From: a virus
Virus record (IMG/VR): IMGVR_UViG_3300046460_000432
Coordinates: 1-30,336 of that record
Strand: one strand, 5' to 3'
Length of the DNA stretch: 30,336 nucleotides
A model generated the notes under the pieces. It did no database searches, was not told where the DNA came from, and saw only the letters and a list, made by a program, of their open reading frames with translations. Below, in pieces: positions 1-30,336 of this stretch; position 1 is the stretch's first letter, and every line of letters starts with the position of its first letter. The position numbers were made by a program, and so were the translations under genes.

Positions 1-441
1 CAGATGCTGATCGGTTATCGCGAAACCCAGCGGGAGAACGGTTACGACGGTCAGTTCCTGTTCCCGTCCCGCAATGGCAAGGCGTTGAGCGAGGGTCAGG
101 CGTGCGCAGTATTCACGCGGCTGGGGCTGGGCGAGTGGACCAGCCACGACCTGCGGAAGGTGGCCCGTACCGGCTGGGCCGACATCGGCATCGACCACCT
201 GATCGGTGAGCTGTTGATCAACCACGCCATGGGCCACAACGTGAAGGTGTACATCCAGTCGGACGTGATGAGCCGCAAGCGTGAGGCCTTGGATCGGTGG
301 TGCGCCTATCTAGATGCAAAGGGTTTCAAGCGCATCCACACCTTGACCGGCCTTAGATCGGGAGATTCTGGTAATCAGCTACAGCCCACGGACGACGTGG
401 CTTTGAGTGCTATTCCAAAAACAACCATAGGCGAGGTTTAA
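1..441 (+). CDS. Tyrosine recombinase (phage integrase), C-terminal part
   Basis: This is the catalytic C-terminal part of a tyrosine site-specific recombinase; the reading frame is open from base 1, so the gene begins upstream of the window. Counting from the Met at base 4, the visible active-site elements are HDLRK (His48, Arg51), the downstream NHAMGH segment (His74/His77) and the likely nucleophile Tyr83 in KVYIQSD. About 60 residues follow the Tyr, and the last 35 or so look low in conservation. The family cuts and rejoins attachment sites during prophage integration and excision. It sits directly before late-control genes, 2 bp from the next ORF, rather than beside an attachment site. 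It may therefore be a second or relocated integrase. The family is clear; its role as the integrase of this prophage is inference. Confidence 0.85.
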   Translation, partial: QMLIGYRETQRENGYDGQFLFPSRNGKALSEGQACAVFTRLGLGEWTSHDLRKVARTGWADIGIDHLIGELLINHAMGHNVKVYIQSDVMSRKREALDRWCAYLDAKGFKRIHTLTGLRSGDSGNQLQPTDDVALSAIPKTTIGEV

Positions 442-1752: not shown

Positions 1753-1840
1753 CGTTTTCGGTTCCACCACACCCATCGCTCCGAGCTGGGAGTGCTGCTG
1801 GAGCCGGATCTATTTCGCTCCCCGAAAGGGAGGATTTCGG

Positions 1841-2170
1841 ATGCCAAACATGCCCGACAAACCAGATACTTGGCTTATCGCGGTGGCCTGGCTCAGCCAG
1901 CATGCCCCGATGTTCTATGCCGCGACGCTGTCGTGTTGGATTGCCTTCCTCCGCGTCATTTACGGCGGTGGAGGGCGGCGGCAGGCCCTGTTGGAATCCT
2001 GCTTGTGCGGCGCGATCACAGCTGGGGCCTTCCCACTGCTCGAATACTTCAACCTCCCATCAAGTCTGGCAGCAGCCCTCGGCGCCGTCATTGGCACTCT
2101 GGGGGTGAAGAAGGTGGCCGCACTGGCCGACCGATTCACTGACTTCAAGTTGCCCAAGCGGCAGGAGTGA
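1841..2170 (+). CDS. Class I holin (lambda S-like family)
   Basis: A 109-residue membrane protein that would form the inner-membrane lesion releasing endolysin. Three hydrophobic segments are visible, at about residues 21-39, 50-68 and 74-94, followed by a charged tail ending KLPKRQE. The length and three-segment layout fit the lambda S / Phage_holin_3_1 type. ATG 1841 has an excellent ribosome site (GGGAGGA at 1828-1834). The frame is open further upstream, but that extension crosses a terminator and has no ribosome site. The N-terminus MPNMPDKPD has a second Met at codon 4, recalling the dual start of lambda S. The next gene begins 3 bp downstream. The endolysin is about 26 kb away at the other end of the prophage. 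Confidence 0.8.
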   Translation: MPNMPDKPDTWLIAVAWLSQHAPMFYAATLSCWIAFLRVIYGGGGRRQALLESCLCGAITAGAFPLLEYFNLPSSLAAALGAVIGTLGVKKVAALADRFTDFKLPKRQE

Positions 2171-2173
2171 TCC

Positions 2174-2368
2174 ATGCAACTCATCGACAACTGGAAACAA
2201 GCGCTGACCATGACCAGTGTTCAGGCAGGCGGCGCTATTGCAGTTCTGGGTGTGGCCGAGCAGCTGATGCCATCGCTACAGGCAGTGCTGCCACCGGTGG
2301 CCTATGGCGTGCTGGGCCTCCTGGTGATGATCGCCCGGGTCGTGCTGCAACCGAAGCTGACCAAGTAG
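2174..2368 (+). CDS. Second small holin-like membrane protein
   Basis: A 64-residue protein with a short polar N-terminus, an Ala/Gly-rich hydrophobic stretch (about residues 17-31) and a stronger membrane segment (about 38-58), then the basic tail QPKLTK. It is directly downstream of the holin with a 3-bp gap, and has its own ribosome site (AGGAG at 2165-2169 approximately). Size, topology and position suit a second holin or antiholin of the kind often paired with class I holins in Pseudomonas prophages. Whether it promotes or delays lysis cannot be told from sequence. Confidence 0.65.
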   Translation: MQLIDNWKQALTMTSVQAGGAIAVLGVAEQLMPSLQAVLPPVAYGVLGLLVMIARVVLQPKLTK

Positions 2369-2378
2369 GTGGCTGGTG

Positions 2379-2567
2379 ATGGTGTGCACTGGATGCGCCG
2401 CCCGGCGTGAATGGATTAAGAAGTGGAGTGCAGTTGCATATGAGCGGGCAAGCGATCTCCTATCTCGCCGAGATACTGAGCGAACAGAAGAAGCAGACAG
2501 CGATCCTCGAACGGATGGCAGAGCAACAGACCCTGCTGATCCAAACGATGGCCGAGGACGAGCCTGA
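2379..2567 (+). CDS. Small phage protein with N-terminal CxxC, overlaps the next gene
   Basis: A 62-residue ORF beginning MVCTGCAARREWIKKW, preceded by AGGTGG 8 bp upstream of ATG 2379 (GTG 2376 is an alternative start). The CxxC followed by a basic, Trp-rich helix and AYERA looks like a real phage protein start. After about residue 30 the sequence becomes a low-complexity Asp/Arg/Thr-rich stretch that overlaps the next gene in another frame, so only the N-terminal half may be constrained. Function unknown. Confidence 0.45.
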   Translation: MVCTGCAARREWIKKWSAVAYERASDLLSRRDTERTEEADSDPRTDGRATDPADPNDGRGRA

Positions 2568-2619
2568 AGACTCTGATGCACCGCCCCTCACCTACATGGA
2601 TGGCACACCATGCCGCTGA
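2440..2619 (+). CDS. Small coiled-coil phage protein
   Basis: A 59-residue acidic protein: a helical segment ISYLAEILSEQKKQTAILE, then a second helix rich in Gln/Met, ending with an acidic linker and YMDGTPCR. Such Gln/Glu-rich short coiled-coil proteins are common just before the HNH gene in Pseudomonas phages. The start is taken as ATG 2440 (GGAG 11 bp upstream); GTG 2428 and ATG 2407 are in frame as alternatives. It overlaps the preceding ORF by 128 bp in a different frame and the HNH gene by 10 bp. Function unknown. Confidence 0.55.
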   Translation: MSGQAISYLAEILSEQKKQTAILERMAEQQTLLIQTMAEDEPEDSDAPPLTYMDGTPCR

Positions 2620-2984
2620 GGCCGCAGAAGCCGTGCAACGCCCAGGGTTGCAACACACTCACGCGCAACCCTCGCTACTGTGATGAACATGCTCACCTGC
2701 TGAAGAGTACGGCCCGGGCCAAGCCTCGGGAGAGCAGCACCAAGCGACACTACAACTACAAGTGGCAGCAGGCCCGGGCCGGCTTCCTCGCGAAGCATCC
2801 GCTCTGTCTTCATTGCTCGGCGCGTGGGTTGGTGGTTGTGGCCACCGATGTCGACCACATCATCCCTCACAAGAACGACATGGCCCTGTTCTGGGACAAG
2901 ACCAACTGGCAGAGCCTGTGCGGACCGTGCCACTCGGCCAAGACGGCCGCCGAAGACGGCGGATTCGGCAATGCGAGGCGCTGA
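2610..2984 (+). CDS. HNH endonuclease (packaging-associated)
   Basis: A 124-residue HNH nuclease. The core is DVDHIIPH (Asp82-His83), Asn99 in TNW and His108 in CGPCH, with structural zinc cysteines C66xxC69 and C104xxC107. A second small Cys/His cluster (C9, C14, C24, H27) sits at the N-terminus. In HK97-like phages an HNH protein encoded beside the terminase (HK97 gp74) is needed for terminase to cut cos ends. Its place just before the small terminase matches that role here. It overlaps the preceding gene by 10 bp. The nuclease call is firm; the packaging role follows from family and context. Confidence 0.9.
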   Translation: MPLRPQKPCNAQGCNTLTRNPRYCDEHAHLLKSTARAKPRESSTKRHYNYKWQQARAGFLAKHPLCLHCSARGLVVVATDVDHIIPHKNDMALFWDKTNWQSLCGPCHSAKTAAEDGGFGNARR

Positions 2985-3143
2985 AAGCAGAAAAACCCCG
3001 GAAAAACAGTGAAATTTGACCAAATGAGAGCGATTCGCGCTCATGGGGAGGGGGAGGGGCGAAAGTCTGGGCCTTTTGGCTTCTAGACCGCGCCCTCAGT
3101 CTTTTTCTTACACCCGCGAAATTAAAAGTTCAGGAGTTGCGCG
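2985..3143 (+). other. Candidate cos region
   Basis: A 159-bp gap between the HNH and small terminase genes. It contains an imperfect inverted repeat (ATGAGAGCG at 3024-3032, CGCGCTCAT at 3036-3044) immediately followed by a G-rich run with three G-blocks (3045-3059). Phages with HNH + P27 small terminase + this type of large terminase are usually cos-packaged, with cos next to these genes. The exact nicking positions cannot be read from sequence alone. The ribosome site for the terminase gene (CAGGAG) lies at the right end. Confidence 0.4.
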
Positions 3144-3632
3144 ATGGGAGGCACCGCCACGGTCGCCGGCCGTGGTCGCAAACCCAAGCCGACGGCCAAG
3201 AAAGAGTTGGCCGGGAACCCCGGCAAGCGGGCTCTGAACAAATCCGAGCCCAAGTTTTCCGAGATCACCAAAGACATCGATCCGCCGGAATGGATGAGCG
3301 AGCTTGCCGCCACGATGTGGAAGATGGTCGTGCCGGAACTGCTGCGTGAACACGTTATCGCGCTCACCGATCTGCACAACGTTGAAGCTTTCTGTACGGC
3401 CTACAGCAAGTGGCGGATGGCTGAAAAATCCGTACAGGATTTCGGGATCGTCGTTCAGTCATCGCAGGGCAGCCCTATGAAAAACCCTGCGCTCACCGCT
3501 GCCAACGAAGCAATGCGTCAGATGGTGACCTTTGGATCGATGCTCGGGCTTGATCCGGCCAGCCGTACGCGACTGATCGGAGGCAACAAGCAGCGCACAA
3601 CCAATGAATTCGCCAACCTACTGAGTTCCTGA
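3144..3632 (+). CDS. terS: Terminase small subunit, P27 family
   Basis: A 162-residue DNA-recognition subunit of the packaging motor. The N-terminus has the basic, Gly/Pro/Lys-rich opening typical of P27-family subunits (GRKPKP, then LAGNPGKR), followed by an all-helical body with the [11 protein letters not shown] helix. The C-terminus has the family ending with [10 protein letters not shown] (about residues 132-141). ATG 3144 has CAGGAG about 8 bp upstream. The stop codon overlaps the ATG of the large subunit (ATGA), indicating translational coupling. The length is normal for the family. Confidence 0.9.
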
Positions 3633-5356
3633 TGACCAAATCCCTGCACGCCAATGTCGACAAGGCAATGGCTTGGGGGCGGTCATTGCTGCGCGGAAAG
3701 GTGCCAGCCTGCCGATACATCCATCAGGCAGTGCAGCGCCACTTCGACGACCTGGCTGCGAGCAGAAAGCGCGGCTTCAAGTTCAAGTTCGACGCGGTCA
3801 AGGCTGAGAAAAAGCTACGTCTGATCCAGCTGCTACCGCACACGAAAGGCGAGTGGGCGTTCAAGCGTCAGCTAATCAGCCTAGAGTCGTGGCAGCTATT
3901 TGGCCTGGCAGTCACCTTTGGTTGGGTAAAGAAGAAGGGCGGCCACCGCCGTTTCCGTGAAAGCTACTGGGAAGTGCCGCGCAAAAACGGCAAATCAGTA
4001 GTCGCAGGTGGTGTCGGTATCAGCATGTTTGTCGCGGATGGTGAGTTCGGTGCCGAGGTGTACGCCGGCGCGACCACAGAGAAGCAGGCGTGGGAGGTTT
4101 TCAGGCCAGCGAAACTGATGGTCAGCAAGTCGCCGATGCTAATCGAGGCGGCCGGCATCGAGGTCAACGCCTCGAACATGAACATCCCTTCCGACTTCAG
4201 CCGCTTCGAGCCGCTGATTGGAAACCCAGGCGATGGTGCGTCACCCAGCTGCGCCATCGTCGACGAATACCACGAACATCCGACATCGGCTCAGTACGAC
4301 ACCATGCTCACCGGTATGGGCGCACGACGGCAGCCGCTGATGTTTATCATCACCACCGCCGGCGCCGATATCGAAGGTCCGTGTTACGACAAGCGCCGCC
4401 AAGTCGTTGAGATGCTGGCGGGAACGGTCCCTGACGAAGAGTTGTTCGGCTGGATCTGGACGCTGGACGAGGGTGATGACTGGACCGACCCGAAGATGCT
4501 GGCCAAGGCGAACCCCAACCACGGGGTTTCGGTGTTCCAAGAGTATTTGGAGAGCCAGCAAGCCAGAGCAATACGCTCAGCGCGCTTCGCGAACACGTTC
4601 AAAACGAAGCACCTGAACCTCTGGGTGAGCGCGAAATCCGGCTTCTACAACATGGAGAGCTGGAAATCCTGCGAAGACACCACGCTCACCCTTGATCAAT
4701 TCGAGGGGCAGGAGTGGATCGGCTCATTCGACTTGGCTCGCAAGCTCGACATGAACTCCAGGGCTCGTCTGTTTTGGCGTGTCATCGACGGCAAAGTTCA
4801 CTATTACAGCGTGGCTCCAAAGTTTTGGGTGCCGGAAGATACGGCCTTCAACAGCGACAACAAGCGCATGGCGGAGCGGTTCCAAGCATGGATCAATTCT
4901 CGTCATCTGGACGTGACTGATGGTGCCGAGATCGATTACCGAGAAATCTTGGAAGACACCAAGGAAGCCAATCACCAGGCACCGATTCGCGAATGCCCTA
5001 TCGACCCTTTCGGCGCGACGGGGCTGATGCACGACTTAGATGACGAGGGCTTCAACCCGATCACGATCACCCAGAACTACACCAACATGTCGGACCCAAT
5101 GAAAGAGCTTGAGGCCGCCATTGAGTCCGGGCGCTTTCACCATGACGGCAACCCGATCATGACCTGGTGTATCGGCAACGTGATCGGCAAAAACCTGCCA
5201 GGCAATGACGATGTCGTCCGCCCGATCAAGCAGGGCGACGACAACAAGATAGATGGCGCGGTCGCGCTGATCATGGCCATTGGCAGGGTTCTGATAAATG
5301 TGAAACAGCCAGACACCAGCGGCTTCTACGAAAACCCAATCATGGTAGGCATTTAA
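3632..5356 (+). CDS. terL: Terminase large subunit (packaging ATPase/nuclease)
   Basis: A 574-residue motor protein that pumps DNA into the procapsid and cuts the concatemer. Walker A is PRKNGKS (residues 116-122) and Walker B is AIVDEY with Asp211-Glu212. A C-terminal RNase H-fold nuclease is indicated by the [10 protein letters not shown] stretch near residue 365 and later acidic residues. Size and motif order match the HK97-type large terminase. It is coupled to the small subunit by a 4-bp overlap and to the portal gene by ATG/TAA sharing of a base at 5356. No lesions were seen. Confidence 0.95.
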
Positions 5357-6657: not shown

Positions 6658-7530
6658 ATGACAATTCGAAGCCTTCCGGCAGCGCCGGCGGGTCGTCCCT
6701 GCGCGGGCGTCTCCTTTGATCTCATGCCTCAGGCCATGGAGCGTTGGAACGCGGACATCCAAGCCGCCTCGGAAGATGACAAAAACACGATTTCAATACT
6801 GGACGCGATCGGCTTTGACCCATGGTCAGGCGAGGGCGTGACCGCAAAGCGTATCTCTGCCGCATTGCGCGGCATGGCCGGCGCTGATGTGACGGTGAAC
6901 GTGAACTCCCCCGGCGGCGACATGTTTGAAGGGTTGGCTATTTACAACATCCTCCGCGAATACAAAGGCCATGTGACGATCAAGGTTCTGGGTCTTGCGG
7001 CATCCGCGGCGTCAATCATTGCTATGGCCGGTGACGAAATTCAGGTGGCTCGATCGGGCTTCTTGATGGTGCACAACGGATGGACCATCGCCGCCGGTAA
7101 CCGTCACCAGTTCCGAGAAGTGGCCGACATGATGGAGCCCTTCGACGCAGCCATGGGCGATATCTACTCCGCCCGCACCGGTGGTGATCTGAAAGCAATG
7201 CAAAAGCTGATGGACGCCGAGACGTGGATTGGCGGGTCTGCTGCAGTTGAGCAGGGCTTCGCTGATTCACTTCTCGACTCCGACTCCATCAAAGAAGGAA
7301 CGAAGGCCCAAGTGGGCCTGATCGCCGCCCGGAAGCTGGATCTGATTCTCGCCAAGCAGGGCATGCCCCGCAGCGAGCGTCGATCACTCATTCAAGAAAT
7401 CAAGTCCGGCACGCCTTGCGCTGCCGAACCCGGTACGCAAGACGCTGCCGACAACCTGGCCAATCTGGCCGAACCAATCGCCGAACTGGAACGAGCACTC
7501 TCTCGGTTCTCGGCAGCCGCTACCAATTAA
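6658..7530 (+). CDS. Prohead protease, ClpP-like (S14 type)
   Basis: A 290-residue protease that would trim the capsid scaffold domain during maturation. The ClpP fold is shown by VNSPGGDMFEG (about residues 82-92), the nucleophile in LAASAASI (Ser116) and MVHNGW (His139). An acidic residue in MGDIY (Asp168) is the probable third triad member. The 75-residue C-terminal tail is polar and low in conservation. ATG 6658 has CTGGAG about 9 bp upstream and follows the portal stop by 3 bp. Many HK97-like phages use an unrelated U35 protease; this one uses the ClpP-type replacement. It is 12 bp from the capsid gene. Confidence 0.93.
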   Translation: MTIRSLPAAPAGRPCAGVSFDLMPQAMERWNADIQAASEDDKNTISILDAIGFDPWSGEGVTAKRISAALRGMAGADVTVNVNSPGGDMFEGLAIYNILREYKGHVTIKVLGLAASAASIIAMAGDEIQVARSGFLMVHNGWTIAAGNRHQFREVADMMEPFDAAMGDIYSARTGGDLKAMQKLMDAETWIGGSAAVEQGFADSLLDSDSIKEGTKAQVGLIAARKLDLILAKQGMPRSERRSLIQEIKSGTPCAAEPGTQDAADNLANLAEPIAELERALSRFSAAATN

Positions 7531-21686: not shown

Positions 21687-21702
21687 GTGACCAGTGTTTA
21701 TT

Positions 21703-21728
21703 GCCCGCCATCGTGCGGGCGTTTTTTT
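21703..21728 (+). terminator. Second, tandem intrinsic terminator
   Basis: GCCCGC / GCGGGC stem (21703-21708 with 21715-21720), loop CATCGT, then G and seven T. It lies 31 bp before the next gene, so the esterase fibre gene is insulated from the S74 fibre gene by two terminators. Confidence 0.75.
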
Positions 21729-21758
21729 GCGCGATTATTTAAAGTATTTGGAGCAAAT

Positions 21759-23693
21759 ATGACTGTAGCGTCTGAACTTGCGAGACTTACAGAGACCATC
21801 GATTCGGCCAATGAGCTTTTTTTATCTGATCAGATAAAGATGATGGATGTGGGTGACGGCGTGCAGCGCCCAACGAATGCAAAGGTGCTCGCTGATCTGG
21901 CAACGCAGATGTCAGGGGCGTTGATATACACATCGGCGTCCCTTGGCCTTGCTGGAACTGTCGCTGATGGATACTTCAGCGTGCTTTCCCCGGCGGCTGA
22001 TGAGTACTTGATCCTATACAAGAACAGCGGCGGCACAGCTGTTGAAGTCAAGCGGTATCCCGCACAGTCTTTGGTCTCATCCATATCGCAAATCCTGGAA
22101 AATATCGCGCCGACAGCACAATACCCAAGTCTCGACTTGGACTGGCCTTTCGTAATCGAGGATGCAAACGGATACCCGTTGCTCGGCGTAAAGGCGGAGG
22201 GTGTGGTGCATGCTGTGCTGGATGCAATGCCTGGCCTGCCGACAATCAGTGACTACGCCTGGGCGATTACAGACGTAAACGACGTCGTGATGATTGGCGT
22301 CACCTGGGATGGCCAGGTTGTTCTGTACGGCCAGGACTCGGTCGCGGTGTCGGCGTATGCGGACGGCCCGCCGGGTGCCCAGGACATTTTCGTTCTGATC
22401 AACAACATCCCGTATCAGATTACATCAAGGGGGGATAACTTCTCGCCGGTGGCAGCCTCGGGTCGTGTCCGGTACATCCAGCGTAAAGGGCTGGTGACGT
22501 CGGTTGTTCAGGATCTTCCGTTGGAGGGCTCTATTGCGCCGTTCGTGACCAAAATTCTGCATATCCTCGCTAGCGGTCAGTCTTTGGCGGTTGGTGGCGG
22601 CTCGGTAGCGATCACCATGCAGCCTCCCGTTGCAAATCGGATGTTGACTCTGCAGAGCGGTGTGCGCCTAACCAATCAAAACGACACCCTGACCAATGAA
22701 ATGGTAGTGCCGTTCAAGCCGCTGGTGTCCAACCAGATGGAGGCACCGGTAACCCAGCTCACTGCACAACTCGGGCGCATTCGGGCGCTGCCGGACAACG
22801 TCGGCACGCTGTCCAGTGTGCACGGACGCACCGGCTATCCAATCGCCTCGCTGTCGAAGGGTTCGGTCTACTACGCCAATAGCATCACGGCGGTAACCTC
22901 GGCCAAGGCCGAATGCACTCGGCTGGGGTATGGGTACGAAGTGCCATTTATGGACTGGATTCAGGGCGAGAACGATCGTTCGGCGGTGGCCGGTTATTAC
23001 GCCGGGCAACTGCTGCAGCTGCAGTTGGACTACAACACCGATATCAAGGCGGCGGCTGGCCAGAGCAAAAACGTCAAGATCCTGCTCGATCAAATCAGCA
23101 ACTGGACGGCATATAACCTAGTCAGCAGCAACGTCCCGCTGGAGCAGATCCAAGTGGCTCTGGACTATCCAGAGAAGTTCGTTTGCGCCGGGCCGAAATA
23201 CTGGCTGCAAACGAATGCCGAGGATGGGCAGCACCTGTCGGGCGAGAACTACACGCGCCTCGCCGCCATGCACGCCCGGCCAGCAGAGGCGTTGATCAAT
23301 GGCTACAGCTGGTTCCCGACGCACGCACGCTCCGCCGTTCGCACTGGGAACAAGGTGGCGGTGAAATTCCATTGCCCGGTCTTCCCGTTGGTCATCGACA
23401 CCGCGCTCGTTAGCGACCCCGGCAATCTCGGGCTGCGCTGGATCGACGACTCGAACAGCGCCGCGATTACCGCCGTGCGGCTATCAAGCTTCGACACCCT
23501 GGAAGTCACGCTTTCGGCCATCCCGAGCGGCGCCAATCCGAAAATCGGCATTGCGGACATTGGCACGGCCGGTGCGTACGGCGGCCCAATCACCGGTCCG
23601 CGCGCGTGCATTCGGGACAGTCAACAGGATCTCGATACCTACGGTGGCCACGTCTACAACTGGGCCTGCCATCAACAAATTCAAGTCGTATAA
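21759..23693 (+). CDS. Tail fibre/spike with SGNH-type acetylesterase domain
   Basis: A 644-residue protein with a fibre-like N-terminal region (about residues 1-265: helical start, then beta-rich repeats) and an SGNH hydrolase domain (about 270-525). The motifs are in order: ASGQSLAVG (Ser275, block I), WIQGEND (residues 400-406, the oxyanion/Glu-Asn block seen in sialate O-acetylesterase relatives) and DGQHLSGENY (Asp489, His492, block V). The family removes acetyl or other acyl esters from sugars, so the likely role is deacetylation of a surface polysaccharide during adsorption. The C-terminus (about 535-644) is a small beta domain. ATG 21759 with TTGGAG upstream is the start. The substrate cannot be read from sequence. 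Confidence 0.82.
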   Translation: MTVASELARLTETIDSANELFLSDQIKMMDVGDGVQRPTNAKVLADLATQMSGALIYTSASLGLAGTVADGYFSVLSPAADEYLILYKNSGGTAVEVKRYPAQSLVSSISQILENIAPTAQYPSLDLDWPFVIEDANGYPLLGVKAEGVVHAVLDAMPGLPTISDYAWAITDVNDVVMIGVTWDGQVVLYGQDSVAVSAYADGPPGAQDIFVLINNIPYQITSRGDNFSPVAASGRVRYIQRKGLVTSVVQDLPLEGSIAPFVTKILHILASGQSLAVGGGSVAITMQPPVANRMLTLQSGVRLTNQNDTLTNEMVVPFKPLVSNQMEAPVTQLTAQLGRIRALPDNVGTLSSVHGRTGYPIASLSKGSVYYANSITAVTSAKAECTRLGYGYEVPFMDWIQGENDRSAVAGYYAGQLLQLQLDYNTDIKAAAGQSKNVKILLDQISNWTAYNLVSSNVPLEQIQVALDYPEKFVCAGPKYWLQTNAEDGQHLSGENYTRLAAMHARPAEALINGYSWFPTHARSAVRTGNKVAVKFHCPVFPLVIDTALVSDPGNLGLRWIDDSNSAAITAVRLSSFDTLEVTLSAIPSGANPKIGIADIGTAGAYGGPITGPRACIRDSQQDLDTYGGHVYNWACHQQIQVV

Positions 23694-23704
23694 GGAATAC
23701 ATCT

Positions 23705-24511
23705 ATGACCGGACTTCGCATCGTGCTGAACACCGTGGACTCCAAAGCACCAGCCTCGGCACCGAAGGTGGCCATGAACGCGCCTGACTCGGTGGCGGCC
23801 AAGATTGCCGCGATCAAGCATTCCGTTTCGGCGCGCTCCCTCAAGTCGGTTACCGGAGGCGGGGTTTCTGGCCGCTGCCGGGTGACCGGAAAAGCGCTCA
23901 CCATGAAGGGGGTTAACCAGGCGAACCTGCAGATTTTTGATGTGATGGGCCGCCGAGCTCTTGGGCTCAGCCCTGTAGGTTATGCAGGTCTTGCCTTGCC
24001 GGTCGACAGCCTCACGTCGTCGTACACCTTCGTGACAGCCATCTACTTGGATGCCGCTGATTATGCGGCCGCCCTTACTTTGAACTTCCTCTCGGGCTTC
24101 GATGCGGCTGATACTTATCAGAACATGCTGTTGCGGTACTACGGCAGCATTCACGGAAGCAGTCCAAATGCGTTGCGAACTTCGGTATTCGGCAACGGCG
24201 CTGCAGCAACGGTGTCCACCATCACGCCAGGTTGGCACGTCGTAACGGTCGATTACAATAATTCGACCAGAACTCTTTCCTTGTCTTTGGACCAAGTGAC
24301 CACGTTTGCTACGGCGACAATGGCTGCTAGCCTGGCGCCTGCTGCGGGTGCTTATGTGGAAATCGGCTACCACCTTGGAGCAGAGGGCTTGAAGGGGTCC
24401 AAGATGGGTGACCTTTACACCTTCAGCACTTCATTGCGTGGCACCGAGCTTGGGCAAGTTCAGCTGGCGGATCTGGTCGCTTCGCTTAAAATTTATTACG
24501 GAGTCAGTTGA
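23705..24511 (+). CDS. LamG/concanavalin-like fibre-associated protein
   Basis: A 268-residue protein. The first 60 residues are Ala/Ser/Lys-rich; the rest is beta-rich with lectin-like (LamG/ConA sandwich) signatures such as SSYTFVTAIYLD, then GWHVVTVDYNNSTRTLSLSLDQ and YVEIGYHLGAEGLKGSKMGDLYTFS. The GW-xVxVxYN pattern followed by a MGDLYxFS strand is typical of LamG_3-like domains in phage fibres that bind glycans. ATG 23705 (AAGGAA upstream) follows the esterase gene by 11 bp, so the two are probably co-expressed and act on the same receptor. No signal peptide. Confidence 0.72.
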   Translation: MTGLRIVLNTVDSKAPASAPKVAMNAPDSVAAKIAAIKHSVSARSLKSVTGGGVSGRCRVTGKALTMKGVNQANLQIFDVMGRRALGLSPVGYAGLALPVDSLTSSYTFVTAIYLDAADYAAALTLNFLSGFDAADTYQNMLLRYYGSIHGSSPNALRTSVFGNGAAATVSTITPGWHVVTVDYNNSTRTLSLSLDQVTTFATATMAASLAPAAGAYVEIGYHLGAEGLKGSKMGDLYTFSTSLRGTELGQVQLADLVASLKIYYGVS

Positions 24512-24760
24512 GACGGCGAGCATTTTGACGCCCCCGTTTAGATGCTCATGCGAGGGCTTTTGACTTGCCCCGCTCCCAGGTGTAAAAAATTTACTCTTTA
24601 TCGGCTTCGTTGCCTGATGCTGTGAGGTGGTCTCCCCGGTTGCCCAGGATGCTTTCTCCATTTCTTCCTGGATGAGCTCTCTGAAGCGCTGTTCTTGCTC
24701 TGCAGTGAAAACGGACTCCGACAAGCCAATATTTACGGTGTTTCCTTCATTCTCTTGCAT
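24431..24760 (-). CDS. Hypothetical protein, reverse strand, after the fibre genes
   Basis: A 109-residue ORF beginning MQENEGNTVNIGLSESV, with a helix FTAEQEQRFRELIQEEMEK (about residues 18-36), followed by a Lys/Thr/Ser-rich, probably disordered C-terminus. The start at 24760 has AAGAAGGA 5-7 bp upstream, which supports translation. The last 27 codons overlap the end of the LamG gene on the other strand. Its direction is opposite to the late operon, as expected of a gene expressed in the lysogen. No known family was recognised; the N-terminal half looks more convincing than the tail. Confidence 0.5.
   Translation of the reverse strand: MQENEGNTVNIGLSESVFTAEQEQRFRELIQEEMEKASWATGETTSQHQATKPIKSKFFTPGSGASQKPSHEHLNGGVKMLAVSTDSVINFKRSDQIRQLNLPKLGATQ
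24530..24561 (+). terminator. Possible terminator of the fibre operon
   Basis: GCCCCCG / CGAGGGC (24530-24536 with 24551-24557, one mismatch), 14-nt loop, then TTTT. Imperfect; it lies inside the reverse-strand ORF described next. Confidence 0.3.
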
Positions 24761-25204
24761 CTTTTTCCTTCTTACTCTCATCAACACGTCACGCGCGGCG
24801 AAAGCCGCATTGATCTCGCGCGGCCTCGCTGAGATGTCGCGGTTCGTGGTAACGCATGAGGTGGCTCAGCAACCGCCAGCGGCCTCGCGGGCTAGGTAAC
24901 CTCGTGTTGATTGCGATAAGCCATCAGTCACAAATCTGCGGCTTGACATCAGCATTTGATGAATTTTCACAAATGCAACCGTCTCACTACTTGGTCAAAG
25001 GAGCCCTATGTGGCTCAATAATTGCTCGAAAAATTTGACGGGCGCATGCCATTCGTTGATGCTACGGCCGGTAAAAAAATGGCCGCCGCGCTGTGCAGAC
25101 CGCAATGAGACAGTTCATGAACCGTCGAATTACAACCGAATAGGTGCCGAAGCGCCGCACGTTATGCATAGAACGAACACATATCTATCCAAATGGGAGC
25201 ATTC
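24761..25204. other. Intergenic stretch before the LicD-like gene
   Basis: 444 bp without a convincing gene. It has a GCGGC-GAAA-GCCGC hairpin at 24795-24808, a TTGACA hexamer at 24943-24948 without a good -10 partner, and AAAGGAGCCCT before ATG 25008. That ATG opens a 76-codon ORF of odd composition (many Trp, His, Arg, Pro), overlapping the LicD gene out of frame. It may be the degraded remains of earlier accessory genes and probably holds the promoter of the LicD operon. Confidence 0.4.
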
Positions 25205-26266
25205 ATGGAAAAGGCCGTGCAGGAGATTTGGGGATTAGTTGAGACGTTCAATGACAAGGAACTTACGGGTTGGGTCAATTTGGCTCAGGGCGAGACTTAT
25301 CGAGAAATCTTTCTTTGCGTAAATGGTAAGCCGGTACAGAAAATTAGGACTTCCGGCCCCATCGAGCGGGATTTGCCTTTTGCTGTTCACCGCTTCTCAT
25401 TGCGGATGAGCTCGCTATGGCATTACGTCTCCCCGAACGACAAAGTTTCAATTAAAGTCAACGATCACGACTTACATATTGCAGGGTATGGTCGTGTGTA
25501 CTCGCCTCTAATCGCGGGCGTGTTAACTACCAGCGTACTTTTCACTAAGCTGGGACGAAAGTATGTTTTCAACCAAAAGGGATCTCTGCAGCTTTCAAAA
25601 ACAGTTGATTTGAAATGGCAGAAAAGGACGTTTGATCTCTATAGTATGGTACGAGAGCACTTGAAGGCGGTGTTCTCTGTCGACCTCGTTGTCATCTATG
25701 GCACTCTCCTTGGCGCTGTGCGGTCAGGCCAGTTCATCGGTCATGATCACGACTTTGATGTTGGCTTCATTTCGAAATTTTCGGCACCAGAAGAGGTTCG
25801 CCAGGAAGCAATTCGAATAGCTGAGAACCTCGTGACATCTGGCTTCCAAATAACGGTGAAACCGTCTTGCATCTATGTTAGACATCCAAGCATCCCAAAA
25901 GCTCAAATCGACATCGGAAGAATTTTTCTCGGCCAGGACAGCAAGCTGCAAACAGCTTTCGGTTTTGCTGGCACGACAGAGTACACAGCTGATCATTTCA
26001 GCGGCGTGGTTCCGATCGAACTTGCCGGAAGCACCGTATATTCCGTGTCCAATCCTGAGGTGCTATTAAGCTGTATCTATGGTGACGAGTGGCGTATTCC
26101 GAACTCTGGCTTCAACTGGGATAGAGAGCGCCGCCGTATCACCCGAGCAGCGCGACTCACCAAAGCTGAAATTCTCTCAATAGCAGAATTTGTAGAGAAG
26201 CACGCAGATGTTGAAACACAAGAGCCGGATCAACCAGGCTCCGCTAACGCTGAAGTTAAGGGATGA
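25205..26266 (+). CDS. LicD/fukutin-family phosphotransferase with N-terminal beta domain
   Basis: A 353-residue cytoplasmic enzyme. Residues 1-100 form a beta-rich domain (GLVETFNDKELTGWVNL, FLCVNGKPVQKI) of a type I associate with bacterial glycan-modifying enzymes. The catalytic part has IYGTLLGAVRSGQFIGHDHD with Gly166 and the metal-binding Asp181, Asp183 and Asp185, the core of the LicD/fukutin nucleotidyltransferase fold. Members transfer phosphocholine or glycerol/ribitol phosphate from CDP-activated donors to glycans. The next gene makes CDP-glycerol, so a glycerol-phosphate transferase is the best guess. ATG 25205 has GGGAG 5 bp upstream. The gene is more AT-rich than the phage structural genes, suggesting separate acquisition. 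The substrate is inferred. Confidence 0.8.
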   Translation: MEKAVQEIWGLVETFNDKELTGWVNLAQGETYREIFLCVNGKPVQKIRTSGPIERDLPFAVHRFSLRMSSLWHYVSPNDKVSIKVNDHDLHIAGYGRVYSPLIAGVLTTSVLFTKLGRKYVFNQKGSLQLSKTVDLKWQKRTFDLYSMVREHLKAVFSVDLVVIYGTLLGAVRSGQFIGHDHDFDVGFISKFSAPEEVRQEAIRIAENLVTSGFQITVKPSCIYVRHPSIPKAQIDIGRIFLGQDSKLQTAFGFAGTTEYTADHFSGVVPIELAGSTVYSVSNPEVLLSCIYGDEWRIPNSGFNWDRERRRITRAARLTKAEILSIAEFVEKHADVETQEPDQPGSANAEVKG

Positions 26267-26279
26267 GGCGGATCTCCAC

Positions 26280-26696
26280 ATGCAAAAGGAAACAGGAAAG
26301 TTGAAGCGAGTTATAACATTCGGAACATATGATGTCCTGCATGTCGGACATATACGCATTCTGCAGCGTGCGCGTGCTTTGGGCGATTATCTAATTGTTG
26401 GTGTTTCTACTGATGCTTTGAACTATTCCAAAAAGCAGAAGTACCCTATTTACAACGAAGCTGACCGAATGGAGATTATCCGTTCGATTGCGGGCGTCGA
26501 TGAAGTTTTTCTTGAGGACTCGCTCGAGCTAAAGGGGGAGTATATCAAGGAGTTCAACGCCGATTTGCTGGTCATGGGCGATGACTGGGCCGGTCGATTT
26601 GACGAGTGGAAGTCTCATTGTGAAGTGCTTTATCTCCCAAGAACCGACGGTATCTCAACGACGATGACACTTGAAGGAATTCGAAGCAGTATATAA
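26280..26696 (+). CDS. CTP:glycerol-3-phosphate cytidylyltransferase (TagD-like)
   Basis: A 138-residue nucleotidyltransferase that makes CDP-glycerol from CTP and sn-glycerol 3-phosphate. The signature motifs are FGTYDVLHVGH (HxGH at residues 21-24) and RTDGISTT (residues 121-128), which bind CTP. DDWAGRFDEW (about 101-110) is also typical of the TagD/GCT group rather than of heptose or FAD enzymes. The length is normal for TagD (about 130). The start is ATG 26280, 13 bp after the LicD stop; the frame is open upstream, but that would overlap LicD. It is co-directional with LicD and supplies its probable donor substrate. Composition is AT-rich like its partner. Confidence 0.88.
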   Translation: MQKETGKLKRVITFGTYDVLHVGHIRILQRARALGDYLIVGVSTDALNYSKKQKYPIYNEADRMEIIRSIAGVDEVFLEDSLELKGEYIKEFNADLLVMGDDWAGRFDEWKSHCEVLYLPRTDGISTTMTLEGIRSSI

Positions 26697-26918
26697 CTAA
26701 TGTACTGTTCTCGAAATTATTTATCCTCCTCTTGCGCCCTCTAGGGATGATCTGAACTGGCCACCGATAATTGATGCAATCCGCGCTCGGGTTTCAAAAA
26801 ACGGTGGCCTAACTGAAAGTCAGACCTGGGCGTCTCTCAACTCAAGCTTTTCCTTGAGTTGCAGTTCTCCAAAGCGGTTGACTTGCCCCTGACGGGGCAG
26901 GCGCTCAGATCGACGCTA
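26697..26918. repeat. Inverted repeats between convergent accessory genes
   Basis: No gene seen. It contains GGCCACCG (26759-26766) and its inverse CGGTGGCC (26802-26809), each flanked by TCTGA/TCAGA-like sequence in inverted order. There is also a perfect 8-bp hairpin AACTCAAG / CTTGAGTT (26839-26846 with 26853-26860) and TGCCCC-TGAC-GGGGCA (26884-26899). The first pair could be leftover ends of an IS21-like element; the hairpins may end transcription of the two converging genes, but neither is followed by a T run. Confidence 0.4.
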
Positions 26919-27701
26919 CTAGCCTTTACGGAATTTAAAAATCTTCGGCTTGAACTCTGAGATGGAACCTGCCGCTATTTCTGCGCTGAGCTTTTTACAG
27001 AAGCTAGCAGGGTCTGCATACCCAATTTCAGAAATCCTCTTGGGGTCGTAATTCCACCACTCAAGTCTGCTTAGCTCAGCTATCACTTCGGGGTCGAACC
27101 GATATTTGAGGACTCTTGCAGGATTACCCCCAACAACCGCATAAGGTGGGACGTCTTTAGTCACCAGCGAGCCCGCTGCCACCACAGCCCCATTACCTAT
27201 TTTGATGCCCATGCATAGGGTAACGTCCCGGCCGATCCATACGTCGTGACCTAGCACCGGGTATTCTTTTCCCCCGAATTTGTGCCAGTTGTATTGCGCG
27301 GTCTGCTCCTTTGTCACAAATTCGCTGACGAGCGAATTGTTTGGCCGGAATGTGATGATGGATGTAGTTACCAGGTCCATCGGATGGTGGGAATCGAGGA
27401 TGGCCAATCCATTGGAGATTGAGCAGTACCGGCCCACTTTCATGGGTTCTGGCAGTGCCGAGTAGGAATAGGAGAATGAGCCAATGCTGCACAGGCCAGA
27501 ATAGCTTCCCCCACCTACACAGCCTTTGTAGTTCCCTTTGTACAGCCCTGAGTAGCTCTCAATGCGGACGTAGGATTTGATTTTCACCTCCACATTGAGA
27601 GGCAGCCAGCCGAAGGCGTTTACTGATGGTGCTGGCGAGTTTACGCGAAACAACACCTTGCTTTGCCACAGTTGCTCAGCTAATGCAGTAGTGAAAATCA
27701 T
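26919..27701 (-). CDS. CatB-like (left-handed beta-helix) O-acetyltransferase
   Basis: A 260-residue hexapeptide-repeat acyltransferase. The repeats are clear in [34 protein letters not shown] and [19 protein letters not shown] (about residues 155-205). The segment [22 protein letters not shown] carries the catalytic-type His of the CatB/xenobiotic acyltransferase group. The C-terminal RLEWWNYDP is also typical of that group. The first 80 residues include Gly/Tyr/Ser-rich repeats ([19 protein letters not shown]) that lengthen the helix. The family moves acetyl from acetyl-CoA to sugars or antibiotics; in a prophage next to LicD/TagD, acetylation of a surface glycan is most likely. ATG 27701 has AAGGA upstream. 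It faces left, against the late genes. Confidence 0.85.
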
Positions 27702-27737
27702 CAACAACGTCCTTGCCTATCATCGAGCGGGGCAGCA

Positions 27738-27766
27738 TTGTATCTAAACGCATGAAAAATTAAATA
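27738..27766 (+). promoter_or_regulatory. Candidate promoter for the endolysin gene
   Basis: TTGTAT (27738-27743), 17-bp spacer, TAAATA (27761-27766), about 57 bp before the endolysin ATG in an AT-rich divergent gap. On the opposite strand the same hexamer gives TACAAT, a possible -10 for the acetyltransferase gene with a poor -35. Confidence 0.4.
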
Positions 27767-27822
27767 TTTCTCATATTCGTGACTAAAACTCAGTTCTTTG
27801 TCGGATAGCCTAGGAGTAACGA

Positions 27823-28356
27823 ATGCCCATAACCCAGCAGCAACTGCTGCAGATCCTCCCCAATGCCCGCCTAGTAGCGGGTATTTTTTTGCCTGCACTT
27901 AACCGGGCGATGGCTCGATTCAAGATCGACAGTAGGGTACGCCAGGCTGCATTCCTGGCCCAGGTCGGCCATGAGTCAGGCCAACTTGTTTACGTCAAAG
28001 AGTTGTGGGGCCCGACCCCGGCACAGATCAAATACGAGGGCAGGGCGGATCTGGGCAACACCATGGCGGGCGACGGGTTAAAGTTTCGTGGTCGTGGCCT
28101 GATCCAGATCACAGGGCGGGCGAACTATGTGGCGTGCGGGCAAGCGCTCGGCCTGGACCTAATCCGTCAGCCAGAGCTACTTGAGCAACCGCAGTATGCC
28201 TGTCTATCGGCAGCCTGGTTCTGGGCAACCAAGGGGATGAATACACTCGCGGACGCTGGCGACTTTGAAAAGATTACTCGCCGGATCAATGGCGGGCTCA
28301 ACGGCCAACCGGATCGGCTGAAGCTGTGGGTAAAAGCCTCCGCGGTGCTGGCATGA
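27823..28356 (+). CDS. Endolysin, glycoside hydrolase family 19
   Basis: A 177-residue chitinase-type lysozyme that cuts the glycan strand of peptidoglycan at lysis. The catalytic region is FLAQVGHESGQLVYVKELWG, with Glu51 as acid and Glu60 the likely second Glu, then FRGRGLIQITGRANY (about residues 88-102) forming the substrate cleft. The C-terminus RRINGGLNGQPDRLKLW is also family-typical. No signal peptide or SAR segment is present, so a holin is needed for release. ATG 27823 has TAGGAG 7 bp upstream. The enzyme is separated from the holins by the whole structural region. No Rz/Rz1 spanin pair could be found after it. Confidence 0.93.
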   Translation: MPITQQQLLQILPNARLVAGIFLPALNRAMARFKIDSRVRQAAFLAQVGHESGQLVYVKELWGPTPAQIKYEGRADLGNTMAGDGLKFRGRGLIQITGRANYVACGQALGLDLIRQPELLEQPQYACLSAAWFWATKGMNTLADAGDFEKITRRINGGLNGQPDRLKLWVKASAVLA

Positions 28357-28500
28357 TTCCGCTATCGCGGCGCGCTGCGTCGGGCAGTCAATCCAGTTGC
28401 CGGTGCTTTTGATTTTGCACGGATCCACGAACATAACTTCCTTGTACTGTTTGGATATTCAGTCGAAGATCGCTTTTTTTAAGATTTTGCAATAGGAACC

Positions 28501-29313
28501 ATGATGCGTTGGGCAAGAGCACTCACGTTTTTCGCTGCAGCTTCGTATTCAGCCATCATTTTTGCCTGGGGAATCGAGGGACATCGAACCGTCGCCCTTA
28601 TCGCCGATGCGGAACTGACTGCTTCCGCGAGGGCTCAGGTCCATCAGCTACTGGCACTAGAGGGACGAGAAAGCATGGGCGATGTCGCATCATGGGCTGA
28701 CGAAATCCGAGGTAAGGAGCCTGAGCTGTCAAATCACACTGTACGCATTCCCTTCAAAGCGACGCAGTACGACCCGAATCGTGACTGCAGTCGCAAAGGA
28801 CGATGCGTCATCTACGGCATTCAAAGTGCATCTGAGCAATTGGCCAACCAAAACATCCCCCCTCTTGAGCGACTTCGAGCCCTTAAATTCCTTATCCACT
28901 ATGTCGGCGACATCCATCAACCCTTGCATGCAATCAAGCAAATAGGTCAAATGCAAGCTCAATGGGGCAAGCGCCATTGGAGGCTGCACAAAATCTGGGA
29001 CACCATCCTTATTCGATCACTTAAAAGAAGCCCCGAAGAGCTCGCGCAAGACCTTTTTACCGACCCGACATATGCATATGTACAACAGGGAACCCCCGAG
29101 CAATGGGCGATGGAAAGCCATGACATCGCCCGAAATTTTATCTATCACAACGACATGAATACTGCCAAAACCAAGGAGACTATTACTCTACCGAATGGTT
29201 ATCCAGAGGACTCAGTACCTGTCGTAAAGAAACGTCTTGCGGCCGCGGGTATTCGCCTTGGCAGATTACTCAACCAATTACTATCGACCTCTCCGCACGC
29301 TTCTGAAAAATGA
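28501..29313 (+). CDS. Secreted S1/P1-family zinc nuclease
   Basis: A 270-residue protein with a signal peptide (residues 1-22, charged start, Phe/Ala core) such that the mature chain would begin with Trp23, itself a zinc ligand in this family. All nine ligands of the tri-zinc site can be placed: Trp23, His28, Asp67, His79, His133, Asp137, His143 (HYVGDIHQPLH), His163 and Asp167 (LHKIWD). The family cleaves single-stranded nucleic acids and 3'-phosphates; here it would be periplasmic or secreted. ATG 28504 has better spacing from AGGA than 28501. It sits alone after the endolysin, so it may be an accessory cargo gene. Its benefit to phage or lysogen is unknown. Confidence 0.88.
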   Translation: MMRWARALTFFAAASYSAIIFAWGIEGHRTVALIADAELTASARAQVHQLLALEGRESMGDVASWADEIRGKEPELSNHTVRIPFKATQYDPNRDCSRKGRCVIYGIQSASEQLANQNIPPLERLRALKFLIHYVGDIHQPLHAIKQIGQMQAQWGKRHWRLHKIWDTILIRSLKRSPEELAQDLFTDPTYAYVQQGTPEQWAMESHDIARNFIYHNDMNTAKTKETITLPNGYPEDSVPVVKKRLAAAGIRLGRLLNQLLSTSPHASEK

Positions 29314-29450
29314 GCCTGACTAGCTTTCTTGGGTAACTCTGATCAAGAATCAACCCCCGCGTTGAATTGATAAGCTCTATGCGAATCAGCGACTGAAGAG
29401 CGGTTGAGATCGCTGGCCGCAACTTAGAGTCAGTCTATGGAAGGAATTAA

Positions 29451-30167
29451 ATGATCAGTAATTTTGAAGGCTATCTTGATAGCTCATTCGATGATGCACT
29501 AGCTGCTCTAGCATTGAATTGGCGACCGTGGGTTGGAAGCGAATACCTGGCCTCAGAACGCAAGACCATTATTCTGGGTGAGAGCATCTATCTCTACGAC
29601 GGTGAATCCAGTCGCCAGAGAATCTTGGATAGAGACAGCCTTAGAAAGCGACAGTTAAACCACGGTATCCTGGCTAAGTACAAAAGCCGTTTCTTGCGTA
29701 ATTTTGAACGTGCCGTCTTCCAGAAGAAGCGCCCCAAGGCAGTTGAACGAAAACGGCTTTGGACTGGAGTGATCTACCACAATCTCGTCCCACGCATGAT
29801 GGAGTCGCTCAAAGATCGGCCGACTTATGACGACTACTACACCGGTTGGAGTGATTTTCTTCAGCTAGTTACTATTGTGAAGGCGCAGCAATGCATCGTT
29901 TATGGGCTAGAAACCCCAAAAATTGGCGCTTTGCTCGCTATGCTAGCCACTCAGAGTGTTGAGGTTCATAGGCAAAAACTTCCCGCTGTGGGGAAAAACA
30001 CCCCTTATATCCTGACCTTCCGGCACAACAATCAATCATTAAAATTGCTGTTTATTCGCCATCCAAGCGCGTTTTTTGCGTGGCGCGAATGGGCGGCGAC
30101 ACTTCGTGAGTCCGGACTGCTCCCTTCAGAAATAATAGGGCCAACTGAATCACATCCTGTTTCATAG
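29451..30167 (+). CDS. Unrecognised protein, possible uracil-DNA-glycosylase-like fold
   Basis: A 238-residue soluble protein, AT-richer than the late genes. ATG 29451 has GGAAGGA 6 bp upstream. Features that recall the uracil-DNA glycosylase superfamily are TIILGESIYLYDG (about residues 39-51), a central IYHNLVPR, QCIVYGLETPKIG (about 158-170) and a terminal FIRHPSAFFAWREW (about 209-222), matching the order ILGE...G...HPS. I cannot identify a catalytic residue with confidence, so activity is unproven. It lies between the nuclease and the last, opposite-facing gene, a typical place for accessory genes. Confidence 0.5.
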   Translation: MISNFEGYLDSSFDDALAALALNWRPWVGSEYLASERKTIILGESIYLYDGESSRQRILDRDSLRKRQLNHGILAKYKSRFLRNFERAVFQKKRPKAVERKRLWTGVIYHNLVPRMMESLKDRPTYDDYYTGWSDFLQLVTIVKAQQCIVYGLETPKIGALLAMLATQSVEVHRQKLPAVGKNTPYILTFRHNNQSLKLLFIRHPSAFFAWREWAATLRESGLLPSEIIGPTESHPVS

Positions 30168-30178
30168 ATATATCCGAA

Positions 30179-30194
30179 CGGCTACTTTTAGCCG
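30179..30194. terminator. Possible bidirectional hairpin between convergent genes
   Basis: Perfect CGGCTA / TAGCCG stem (30179-30184 with 30189-30194) with loop CTTT, between two converging genes. There is no T run on either side, so termination is only possible. Confidence 0.35.
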
Positions 30195-30201
30195 ATAGCC
30201 T

Positions 30202-30336
30202 TCACTCCGGCGCCATCATCACCGCGAGCGTCATCTTGATGAACTCTTCATTCTTGTCGATGGCTTCCAGGGCAGCGCGCACGTTGTCGGCGACATCAGC
30301 CGCACCCCGCTGCTCGACCCAGTTCGAGAGCTCCAT
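30202..30336 (-). CDS. Small hypothetical prophage protein, at window edge
   Basis: A reverse-strand ORF of at least 44 residues, whose first visible codon is an ATG exactly at the last base of the window; it may be complete or continue beyond. It starts MELSNWVEQRGAADV and continues helical with ALEAIDKNEEF, ending MMAPE. Composition is like the phage core genes. It resembles short helical proteins found near prophage ends in Pseudomonas, but I know no function. Confidence 0.55.
   Translation of the reverse strand: MELSNWVEQRGAADVADNVRAALEAIDKNEEFIKMTLAVMMAPE

Follow-up and report, generated by a model that had tools for sequence, protein, structure and literature searches.

A TagD-like cytidylyltransferase and a LicD-fold transferase form a prophage gene pair that may add glycerol phosphate to a host surface glycan

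The surface conversions known from prophages are chiefly glucosylation and acetylation, and the phage enzymes of O-antigen conversion (Oac acetylases, Gtr operons) are carried as temperate-phage cargo. Here we describe two neighboring genes, one LicD-like and one TagD-like, in the IMG/VR virus record IMGVR_UViG_3300046460_000432 (analyzed over its whole length of 30,336 bp, position 1 being its first letter, and referred to hereafter as the window). We hold with moderate confidence that the two constitute a lysogenic-conversion cassette, in which the TagD-like enzyme would make cytidine diphosphate (CDP)-glycerol and the LicD protein would attach glycerol phosphate to a surface glycan of the host. 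Prophage conversion of surface glycans is already known, and the pair would be a variant of it.

Several related systems have been published. An experimentally proven capsule pair using CDP-glycerol comes from Actinobacillus pleuropneumoniae: Cps7B is a CTP:glycerol-3-phosphate cytidylyltransferase (GCT) and Cps7C a LicD protein with a tetratricopeptide repeat (TPR) domain, in which D247 and D293, 46 residues apart, are essential (PMC11666461). Among phages, some members of the gut Flandersviridae possess adjacent ispD and licD genes; the authors knew neither enzyme from phages before, and suggest that licD might prevent superinfection (PMC8008677). A tagD gene occurs in 16 Arctic viral operational taxonomic units (vOTUs; PMC11515562) and in roseophage CRP-6 (PMC6918029), LicD-like genes neighbor those of PntC nucleotidyltransferases in bacterial phosphonate loci (PMC6697681), and epaA–epaB of an Acinetobacter baumannii prophage is a two-gene unit that alters host capsular polysaccharide, as seen by nuclear magnetic resonance (PMC12053666). 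A first-pass annotation of the window, made by a model from the letters alone, had called the pair no standard serotype-conversion module; this stands to the extent that no report of a GCT–LicD prophage cassette was among the papers listed by searches of an open-access library, and gives way to the extent that an ispD–licD pair, tagD phages and the Actinobacillus pair are published.

The first gene of the pair starts at an ATG (25205) with GGGAG just upstream, and its stop codon spans 26264–26266. The product is laid out as an N-terminal β-sandwich (residues ~10–85) and a nucleotidyltransferase domain (~130–307). A structure model computed with 19 related sequences (predicted local distance difference test, pLDDT, 88.3; predicted template modeling score 0.85) has human FKRP as its best match in the Protein Data Bank (PDB; Foldseek E 4.3e-9), superimposing 157 residues at Z 14.6, a root-mean-square deviation of 3.4 Å and 18% identity, against Z 9.2 for the best non-FKRP entry. 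A profile of the 19-sequence alignment likewise finds FKRP (E 1.4e-16, next match E 0.057); a phmmer search of the PDB with the single sequence returned nothing meaningful (best E 0.69). The Pfam LicD family PF04991 gives 20.0 bits, under its gathering cut-off of 22.6 (a threshold for searching rather than a property of the enzyme), and because of this shortfall the LicD assignment rests on the FKRP profile match and the fold. Six residues are invariant across the 19 aligned sequences (G166, G170, R173, D181, D183 and D185), so that the LicD/fukutin-type gene with its Asp181/183/185 triad, as first annotated, is borne out, and the structure prediction then proposed gives an FKRP-like nucleotidyltransferase fold with the carboxylates present. 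Modeled alone, the N-terminal domain (pLDDT 74.6) matched only generic β-sandwiches (best Z 6.4, no Foldseek E below 0.001), some of them carbohydrate-binding or glycosidase-linked. A nucleotidyltransferase-toxin reading was rejected, MenT1 reaching Z 9.2, well under the 14.6 of FKRP, and so was a defense reading, PADLOC giving no match for LicD, TagD or the nearby acetyltransferase.

A single-sequence scan with the window LicD found no relative in viral contigs (three pattern stretches) or genome contigs (48 stretches), a two-sequence alignment search yielded four genome loci (161 stretches) and one viral locus (88 stretches), and two Shinella plasmids were matched by the window LicD; the cultured-phage collection matched neither this LicD nor that of L185. 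The nearest relatives found are those of Salinicola socius (41% identity, residues 10–330), Shinella (38–39%) and Hansschlegelia (33%). Among 390 genomes of the Salinicola order eight match, the best outside Salinicola at E 1.2e-20, and DNA 24500–30336 gave four short weak matches in 115 genomes of that order. The Salinicola relative, which PF04991 recognizes above cut-off (30.9 bits), directly follows a TagF-like PF04464 gene (E 6.1e-31) in a capsule-like locus, contig L048, 775–9950, whose genes include a Stealth gene, a GCT-like gene (161.3 bits against the GCT equivalog TIGR01518), two TPR-LicD genes, a TPR-TagF-like gene and a third LicD gene; this is apparently a Cps7-like system. The Hansschlegelia relative has another LicD gene and a PF04464 gene at most 5 kb away, and the GCT-like gene of that genome (146.3 bits) is on a different contig; the two Shinella genomes searched held no match to the window TagD, and the LicD proteins of both genera have a methyltransferase-like C-terminal part. 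Since PF04464 and GCT neighbors are CDP-glycerol enzymes by name, part of the window LicD's branch seems to keep company with enzymes of CDP-glycerol. Of 229 genomes drawn from the class, 12 had TIGR01518 (E 1e-18 or better), six had PF04991, and three had both at most 2.5 kb apart, one of the three being Salinicola, the center of the draw, picked for having LicD.

In both Salinicola TPR-LicDs the middle Asp of the DxDxD motif and the second Asp are 46 residues apart, and this spacing maps onto D183 and D236 of the window LicD (Cps7C itself is absent from the alignment); D181/D183/D185 together with D236 are the predicted catalytic carboxylates, D183 and D236 being the putative counterparts of Cps7C D247 and D293. 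Given that Cps7C, a LicD-family protein, polymerizes glycerol 3-phosphate (PMC11666461), and that TPR-LicD and TPR-TagF-like genes share the locus of the closest relative, the window LicD might itself be a polymerase, building a short poly(glycerol phosphate) chain on the host glycan instead of placing a single tag. We think this rather unlikely: Pfam finds no TPR in the window LicD, whose identity to the two Salinicola TPR-LicDs is 27.6% and 28.7% over the shared domain.

The second gene, which opens 13 bp after the LicD stop as first annotated, encodes CYTIDYLYLTRANSFERASE (26280–26696), 52% identical to Bacillus subtilis GCT (1coz) over 127 residues. Both GCT motifs, HxGH (here HVGH) and RTxGISTT (here RTDGISTT), are kept. 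Of 25 selected positions compared with the B. subtilis enzyme, 19 are identical, the others being K46, R63, W74, E96, K98 and L102. Lysines K44 and K46 of GCT bind the phosphates of CDP-glycerol (PMC8262930); K44 is retained, and K46 aligns with Q or K according to the placement of a one-residue gap. W74L looks like a subfamily trait, since the TagD-like proteins of Escherichia coli and Pantoea have it too. TIGR01518 scores the window protein at 127.6 bits, below Salinicola and Hansschlegelia and below five viral TagD-like proteins (135–162 bits) but above seven other viral ones (66–117 bits). CDP-glycerol is most likely its product, to judge from these comparisons.

The nearest TagD relatives found are in a human-fecal "Bacteriophage sp." record (62.7% identity), in Pantoea (62.5%) and in E. 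coli flagellar loci (59–61%). The E. coli genes lie directly after fliJ on two plasmid records (L219, 8992–9387, and L220, 6992–7387) taken as flag-2 loci, a type of locus surveyed elsewhere, with TagD in 235 strains along with TagB-type genes, both read there as flagellin-glycan genes, from which polyol-phosphate glycans were inferred (PMC6993521). By extension the acceptor might be a flagellin glycan rather than lipopolysaccharide (LPS) or capsule, and the prophage would alter the flagellum. An equally close Pantoea relative lies outside flagellar genes, the E. coli and Pantoea stretches yielded no LicD (best E 0.13), and the Salinicola LicD relative belongs to a capsule-like locus, for which reasons we regard a flagellar target as improbable.

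The pairing of the two families recurs in viral DNA. A LicD-motif search of viral contigs returned 48 loci, in 36 of which a TagD-like match lies no more than 5 kb away, sharing the strand of LicD in 35, against 0 of 81 for the same TagD queries on fiber/endolysin loci of the window's kind, a control made up of one phage group, not random viral DNA. The search for the same pair in phage DNA that had been proposed with the first annotation thus found it repeatedly, with limits on the count: two contigs of the motif alignment were recovered again (that of L018 as L188, that of L022 as L196), leaving 34 of 46 without them, L216 is the contig of L041, first found via TagD, L177/L179 and L201/L202 look near-identical, and the loci are not all independent. 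By offsets, the TagD-like match starts at most ~610 bp from the LicD match start in 17 of the 48. Searching from the TagD side found PF04991 in 11 of 45 records, ten of them within ~4 kb by coordinates.

Three of these viral pairs resemble the setting in the window most. On contig L185 the order, with other open reading frames (ORFs) interspersed, is integrase-like, SRAP-like, GH19 endolysin (52% identical to the window endolysin), LicD, TagD, tail fiber (phrog_5668) and a 1,692-residue ORF, a probable tape-measure gene that matches the window tape-measure protein over 108 residues; the L185 pair occupies the same fiber–endolysin junction as the window pair, and only L185 clearly does so. The L174 pair adjoins fiber-region ORFs (one of 646 residues with a lipase PHROG match, then one matching tail-fiber PHROGs) on a contig whose remaining ORFs are, by eye, myovirus-like, and the L181 pair lies between an integrase and a 790-residue ORF without PHROG match, with terminase next. 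The three LicDs are 64–90% identical to one another but, in the domain that they have in common with the window LicD, only 27–28% identical to it, and their N-terminal part is different and longer; their TagD partners score 153–155 bits with TIGR01518. Because two LicD types with GCT-like partners occur in phages, these comparisons suggest that the GCT–LicD pair was acquired independently by phages.

Other LicD-bearing contigs are differently composed. Three of them (L017, 3.3–7.6 kb; L018, 3.2–8.5 kb; L022, 3.9–9.2 kb) have, by eye, apparent genes for phosphoenolpyruvate (PEP) mutase, phosphonopyruvate decarboxylase and 2-aminoethylphosphonate transaminase beside a TagD-like gene and LicD, and are apparent phage-borne phosphonate decoration cassettes. 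Viral contig L052 (7986–10808) has a LicD adjoining methyltransferase-like and glycosyltransferase-like ORFs (by eye). On L201 (1778–5498) a GCT-like gene and LicD stand beside a glycerol-3-phosphate dehydrogenase gene (NF000942) on the opposite strand; the DNA, listed as viral, might be the host's.

Several points weigh against the reading of the window pair as a glycerol-phosphate cassette. The TagD-like protein departs from B. subtilis GCT at six of the 25 positions, R63 and W74 included; its 127.6 bits fall under the curated TIGR01518 cut-off of 165.4 (as do the scores from L174, L181 and L185), which is why we call it GCT-like and not a GCT equivalog; and its top PHROG carries the name heptose-phosphate adenylyltransferase. 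The sole NCBIfam match of LicD is a cholinephosphotransferase, Mf1 (38.7 of 225 bits). A TagD-like gene beside a viral LicD need not mean glycerol, as the three contigs with apparent phosphonate genes illustrate, and all rows of the LicD motif alignment behind the recurrence count derive from TagD-bearing loci. No glycosyltransferase or flippase was seen with the pair, no promoter-like site was found in 24300–28600, and the record is a fragment whose presumed temperate status is read from part of an integrase.

The donor is the chief uncertainty, followed by the acceptor (LPS, capsule or flagellin). With the same architecture, the TagD-like enzyme could activate a different phosphoryl or phosphonyl compound (phosphoethanolamine, 2-aminoethylphosphonate, some other polyol phosphate or a sugar phosphate), which LicD would then attach; the phosphonate contigs, the sub-threshold GCT score, the PHROG name and the very weak match to Mf1, a LicD protein using CDP-choline and CDP-ethanolamine (PMC11982090), all lean this way. 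We nevertheless consider another donor unlikely. In the window we saw neither a PEP mutase nor a kinase nor any further gene to supply such a compound; the GCT score of its TagD compares with 66–67 bits for L017 and L018, and with 73.6 bits for the heptose enzyme when NCBIfam is applied to the same protein; identity in one alignment is 37% to human ethanolamine-phosphate cytidylyltransferase against 51% to 1coz; and the nearest LicD relatives lie near PF04464 genes in Salinicola and Hansschlegelia. CDP-glycerol is therefore our best inference for the LicD donor. Of the two-gene glycerol-phosphate unit first annotated, the donor-plus-transferase pair is upheld by fold, closest relatives and recurrence, and CDP-glycerol stays the probable donor; the observation is real and coherent, and better supported than the first-pass annotation could know.

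That annotation had also counted acetylation as the unit's second modification. The CatB-like O-acetyltransferase on the other strand exists (listed ORF start TTG 27707, alternative ATG 27701, end 26919), under the NCBIfam cut-offs for xenobiotic enzymes (Vat 115.1 of 300 bits, CatB 92.8 of 350). In a sister prophage contig, L150 (85% DNA identity over window positions 1815–5288), the order is fiber, small fiber-region ORF, minus-strand acetyltransferase and endolysin, with no LicD or TagD between, and that acetyltransferase is a 38.7% relative of the window's in the same place. Because of its opposite strand, and because L150 has a relative there without the pair, we judge the acetyltransferase to be separate cargo and have removed acetylation from the unit. 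The ORF at 6789–7685 of L150, directly after the endolysin, has by eye a SIR2-type beginning and is possibly a defense gene.

The LicD/TagD pair is accessory: it is missing at the same site in the close relative L150, and in L090 a different gene takes its place. On that contig, whose tail protein J is 80% and whose fiber-region proteins are 58% and 52% identical to the window's, the 52% relative of the 23606–24511 protein is followed within ~50 bp by this gene, cell-wall-hydrolase-like by eye. The endolysin has 143 viral relatives, of which the best 80 were used; ORFs of the site were taken from the 71 of those 80 loci with at least 2.5 kb upstream. Scanning 81 proteins (80 of 82 cluster representatives, two small L160 ORFs being left out, plus the window acetyltransferase) gave, among the matches listed by family, six to Acyl_transf_3, two to Hexapep (one the window's own) and two to methyltransferase families. 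The fiber–endolysin junction looks like a cargo site at which glycan modifiers are gained and lost.

Table 1. Annotated features of the 30,336-bp window around and beyond the gene pair
Feature	Coordinates	Strand	Evidence and remarks
Tyrosine integrase, C-terminal part	1..441	+	Cut by left end of record; phrog_1 E 4.8e-12
Tail fiber protein	21687..23693	+	phrog_4201 E 1.1e-111; left of cargo site
Small fiber-region protein, function-less PHROG	23606..24511	+	phrog_26512 E 1.4e-87, match from residue 34
LicD/FKRP-fold phosphotransferase, 353 aa	25205..26266	+	Structure model; FKRP profile and fold match
TagD-like CTP:glycerol-3-phosphate cytidylyltransferase, 138 aa	26280..26696	+	HVGH, RTDGISTT; 13 bp after LicD stop
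Hexapeptide-repeat (Vat/CatB-type) O-acetyltransferase	26919..27701	-	PF00132 E 7.2e-8; VatD 1khr E 6.3e-27
GH19 endolysin	27823..28356	+	PF00182 E 1.9e-10; right of cargo site

The phage is most likely temperate, because of the tyrosine integrase fragment at the left end (PF00589 E 2e-4, positions 88–169 of 172, scoring 21.6 bits against a cut-off of 27.1), and the record is incomplete (Table 1). Structural DNA (1–24999) matches ten phage records, eight of them Pseudomonas phages, at 75.7–82.4% identity, each match covering at most 12% of the query; DNA matches of the endolysin region are likewise mainly to Pseudomonas phages, and the carrier appears to be a Pseudomonas-type temperate phage. 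The true start of the 23606–24511 protein is probably later than the ORF start. The pair lies between fiber and lysis genes, and the three-gene stretch is AT-rich relative to the structural genes, both as first annotated: 25205–27701 has 48.9% G+C, 2.5-kb windows over 1–24511 averaging 57.7% (standard deviation 1.7, minimum 54.6%), and third-position G+C is 0.50 for LicD and 0.48 for TagD against 0.625–0.742 for six structural genes. Low G+C is not confined to the three genes, extending right of the endolysin into an S1/P1 nuclease gene (50.8%) and the last ORF (48.0%), with third-position values of 0.49–0.50 in these two last ORFs of the record. Terminator-like sites in 24300–28600 showed no excess over shuffles, and neither an Rfam match nor a tRNA was found.

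Directly after the endolysin, the S1/P1-type nuclease gene (28501–29313, plus strand; PF02265 E 2.5e-51; third-position G+C 0.50) matched nothing in the phage collection (cut-off E 1e-5) and had a relative in 19 of the 229 genomes of the class (best 37% identity); it may be host flank or additional cargo. The 238-residue protein of 29451–30167 (plus strand) has no match in Pfam, NCBIfam, PHROG, PADLOC or the phage collection. The run of low G+C into a nuclease gene without phage relatives, together with the lack of any match for the window LicD in the cultured-phage collection, would fit genes that are there by chance, or host DNA taken in through a misplaced record boundary, and that play no part in conversion. 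We give this very little credence: the pair is inside the phage, flanked by genes of the fiber region and the endolysin; L185 has a related pair at this junction and, on the same contig, a probable tape-measure gene along with an integrase-like ORF; and both frames are intact with conserved motifs.

Computation shows the fold, the retained carboxylates and CTP-binding motifs, the close spacing of the two genes, where they lie, and that the pair recurs. The glycerol-phosphate mechanism that we infer, with its donor, acceptor and effect on infection, would run as follows. The TagD-like enzyme would convert CTP and sn-glycerol 3-phosphate, available in any host, to CDP-glycerol, and the nucleotidyltransferase-fold, fukutin-type LicD would use this donor to place glycerol phosphate on a hydroxyl group of one of the lysogen's surface glycans, which, as no glycosyltransferase or flippase was seen with the pair, must pre-exist in the host; LPS O-antigen or core, or capsule, could serve. 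The added, negatively charged phosphodiester could abolish a receptor used by phages or alter the serotype. More broadly and only tentatively, we suggest a recurrent GCT–LicD module, assembled more than once near the fiber and lysis genes of Gram-negative temperate phages, which would write a teichoic-acid-like glycerol-phosphate decoration and be one case of a wider viral nucleotidyltransferase–LicD system that also delivers phosphonates. If so, serotype conversion would have a further chemistry besides glucosylation and acetylation, and viruses may have an overlooked route by which to re-label their hosts. A portable unit making its own activated donor could work in many hosts with a suitable glycan, would add surface charge, and could explain strain-variable glycerol phosphate without a gene at the polysaccharide locus; the pair also provides a simple system in which to study bacterial LicD proteins, a family that has seldom been assayed.

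Set against known systems, the pair resembles Oac and Gtr as temperate-phage cargo modifying the O-antigen, with Acyl_transf_3 members present at the cargo site, but those add acetyl or glucosyl groups, not phosphodiesters. Human FKRP and fukutin with ISPD are likewise LicD-fold polyol-phosphate transferases fed by a CDP-polyol synthase (PDB 6KAK to 6L7U), and differ in being eukaryotic, using CDP-ribitol as donor and having an IspD-type cytidylyltransferase. The epaA–epaB unit is also a prophage-borne two-gene unit for surface polysaccharide, one that involves no phosphodiester chemistry (PMC12053666). Arctic vOTUs and CRP-6 share a phage gene annotated as GCT, but the passages on them mention no LicD partner and read the gene as cryoprotective or of unclear function (PMC11515562, PMC6918029). 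Flandersviridae have phage-borne neighboring cytidylyltransferase-type and licD-family genes, again in only some members, but the cytidylyltransferase-type gene is of the IspD family, not TagD, the insertion is within the replication module, the phages are different ones, and the passages on them name no donor (PMC8008677). Cps7B and Cps7C combine a cytidylyltransferase with a LicD-family transferase whose carboxylate pattern agrees by spacing (PMC11666461, PMC8262930); theirs is a chromosomal capsule locus with a TagF-like polymerase and a TPR domain in Cps7C, whereas the window holds a stand-alone prophage pair whose LicD has an N-terminal β-sandwich.

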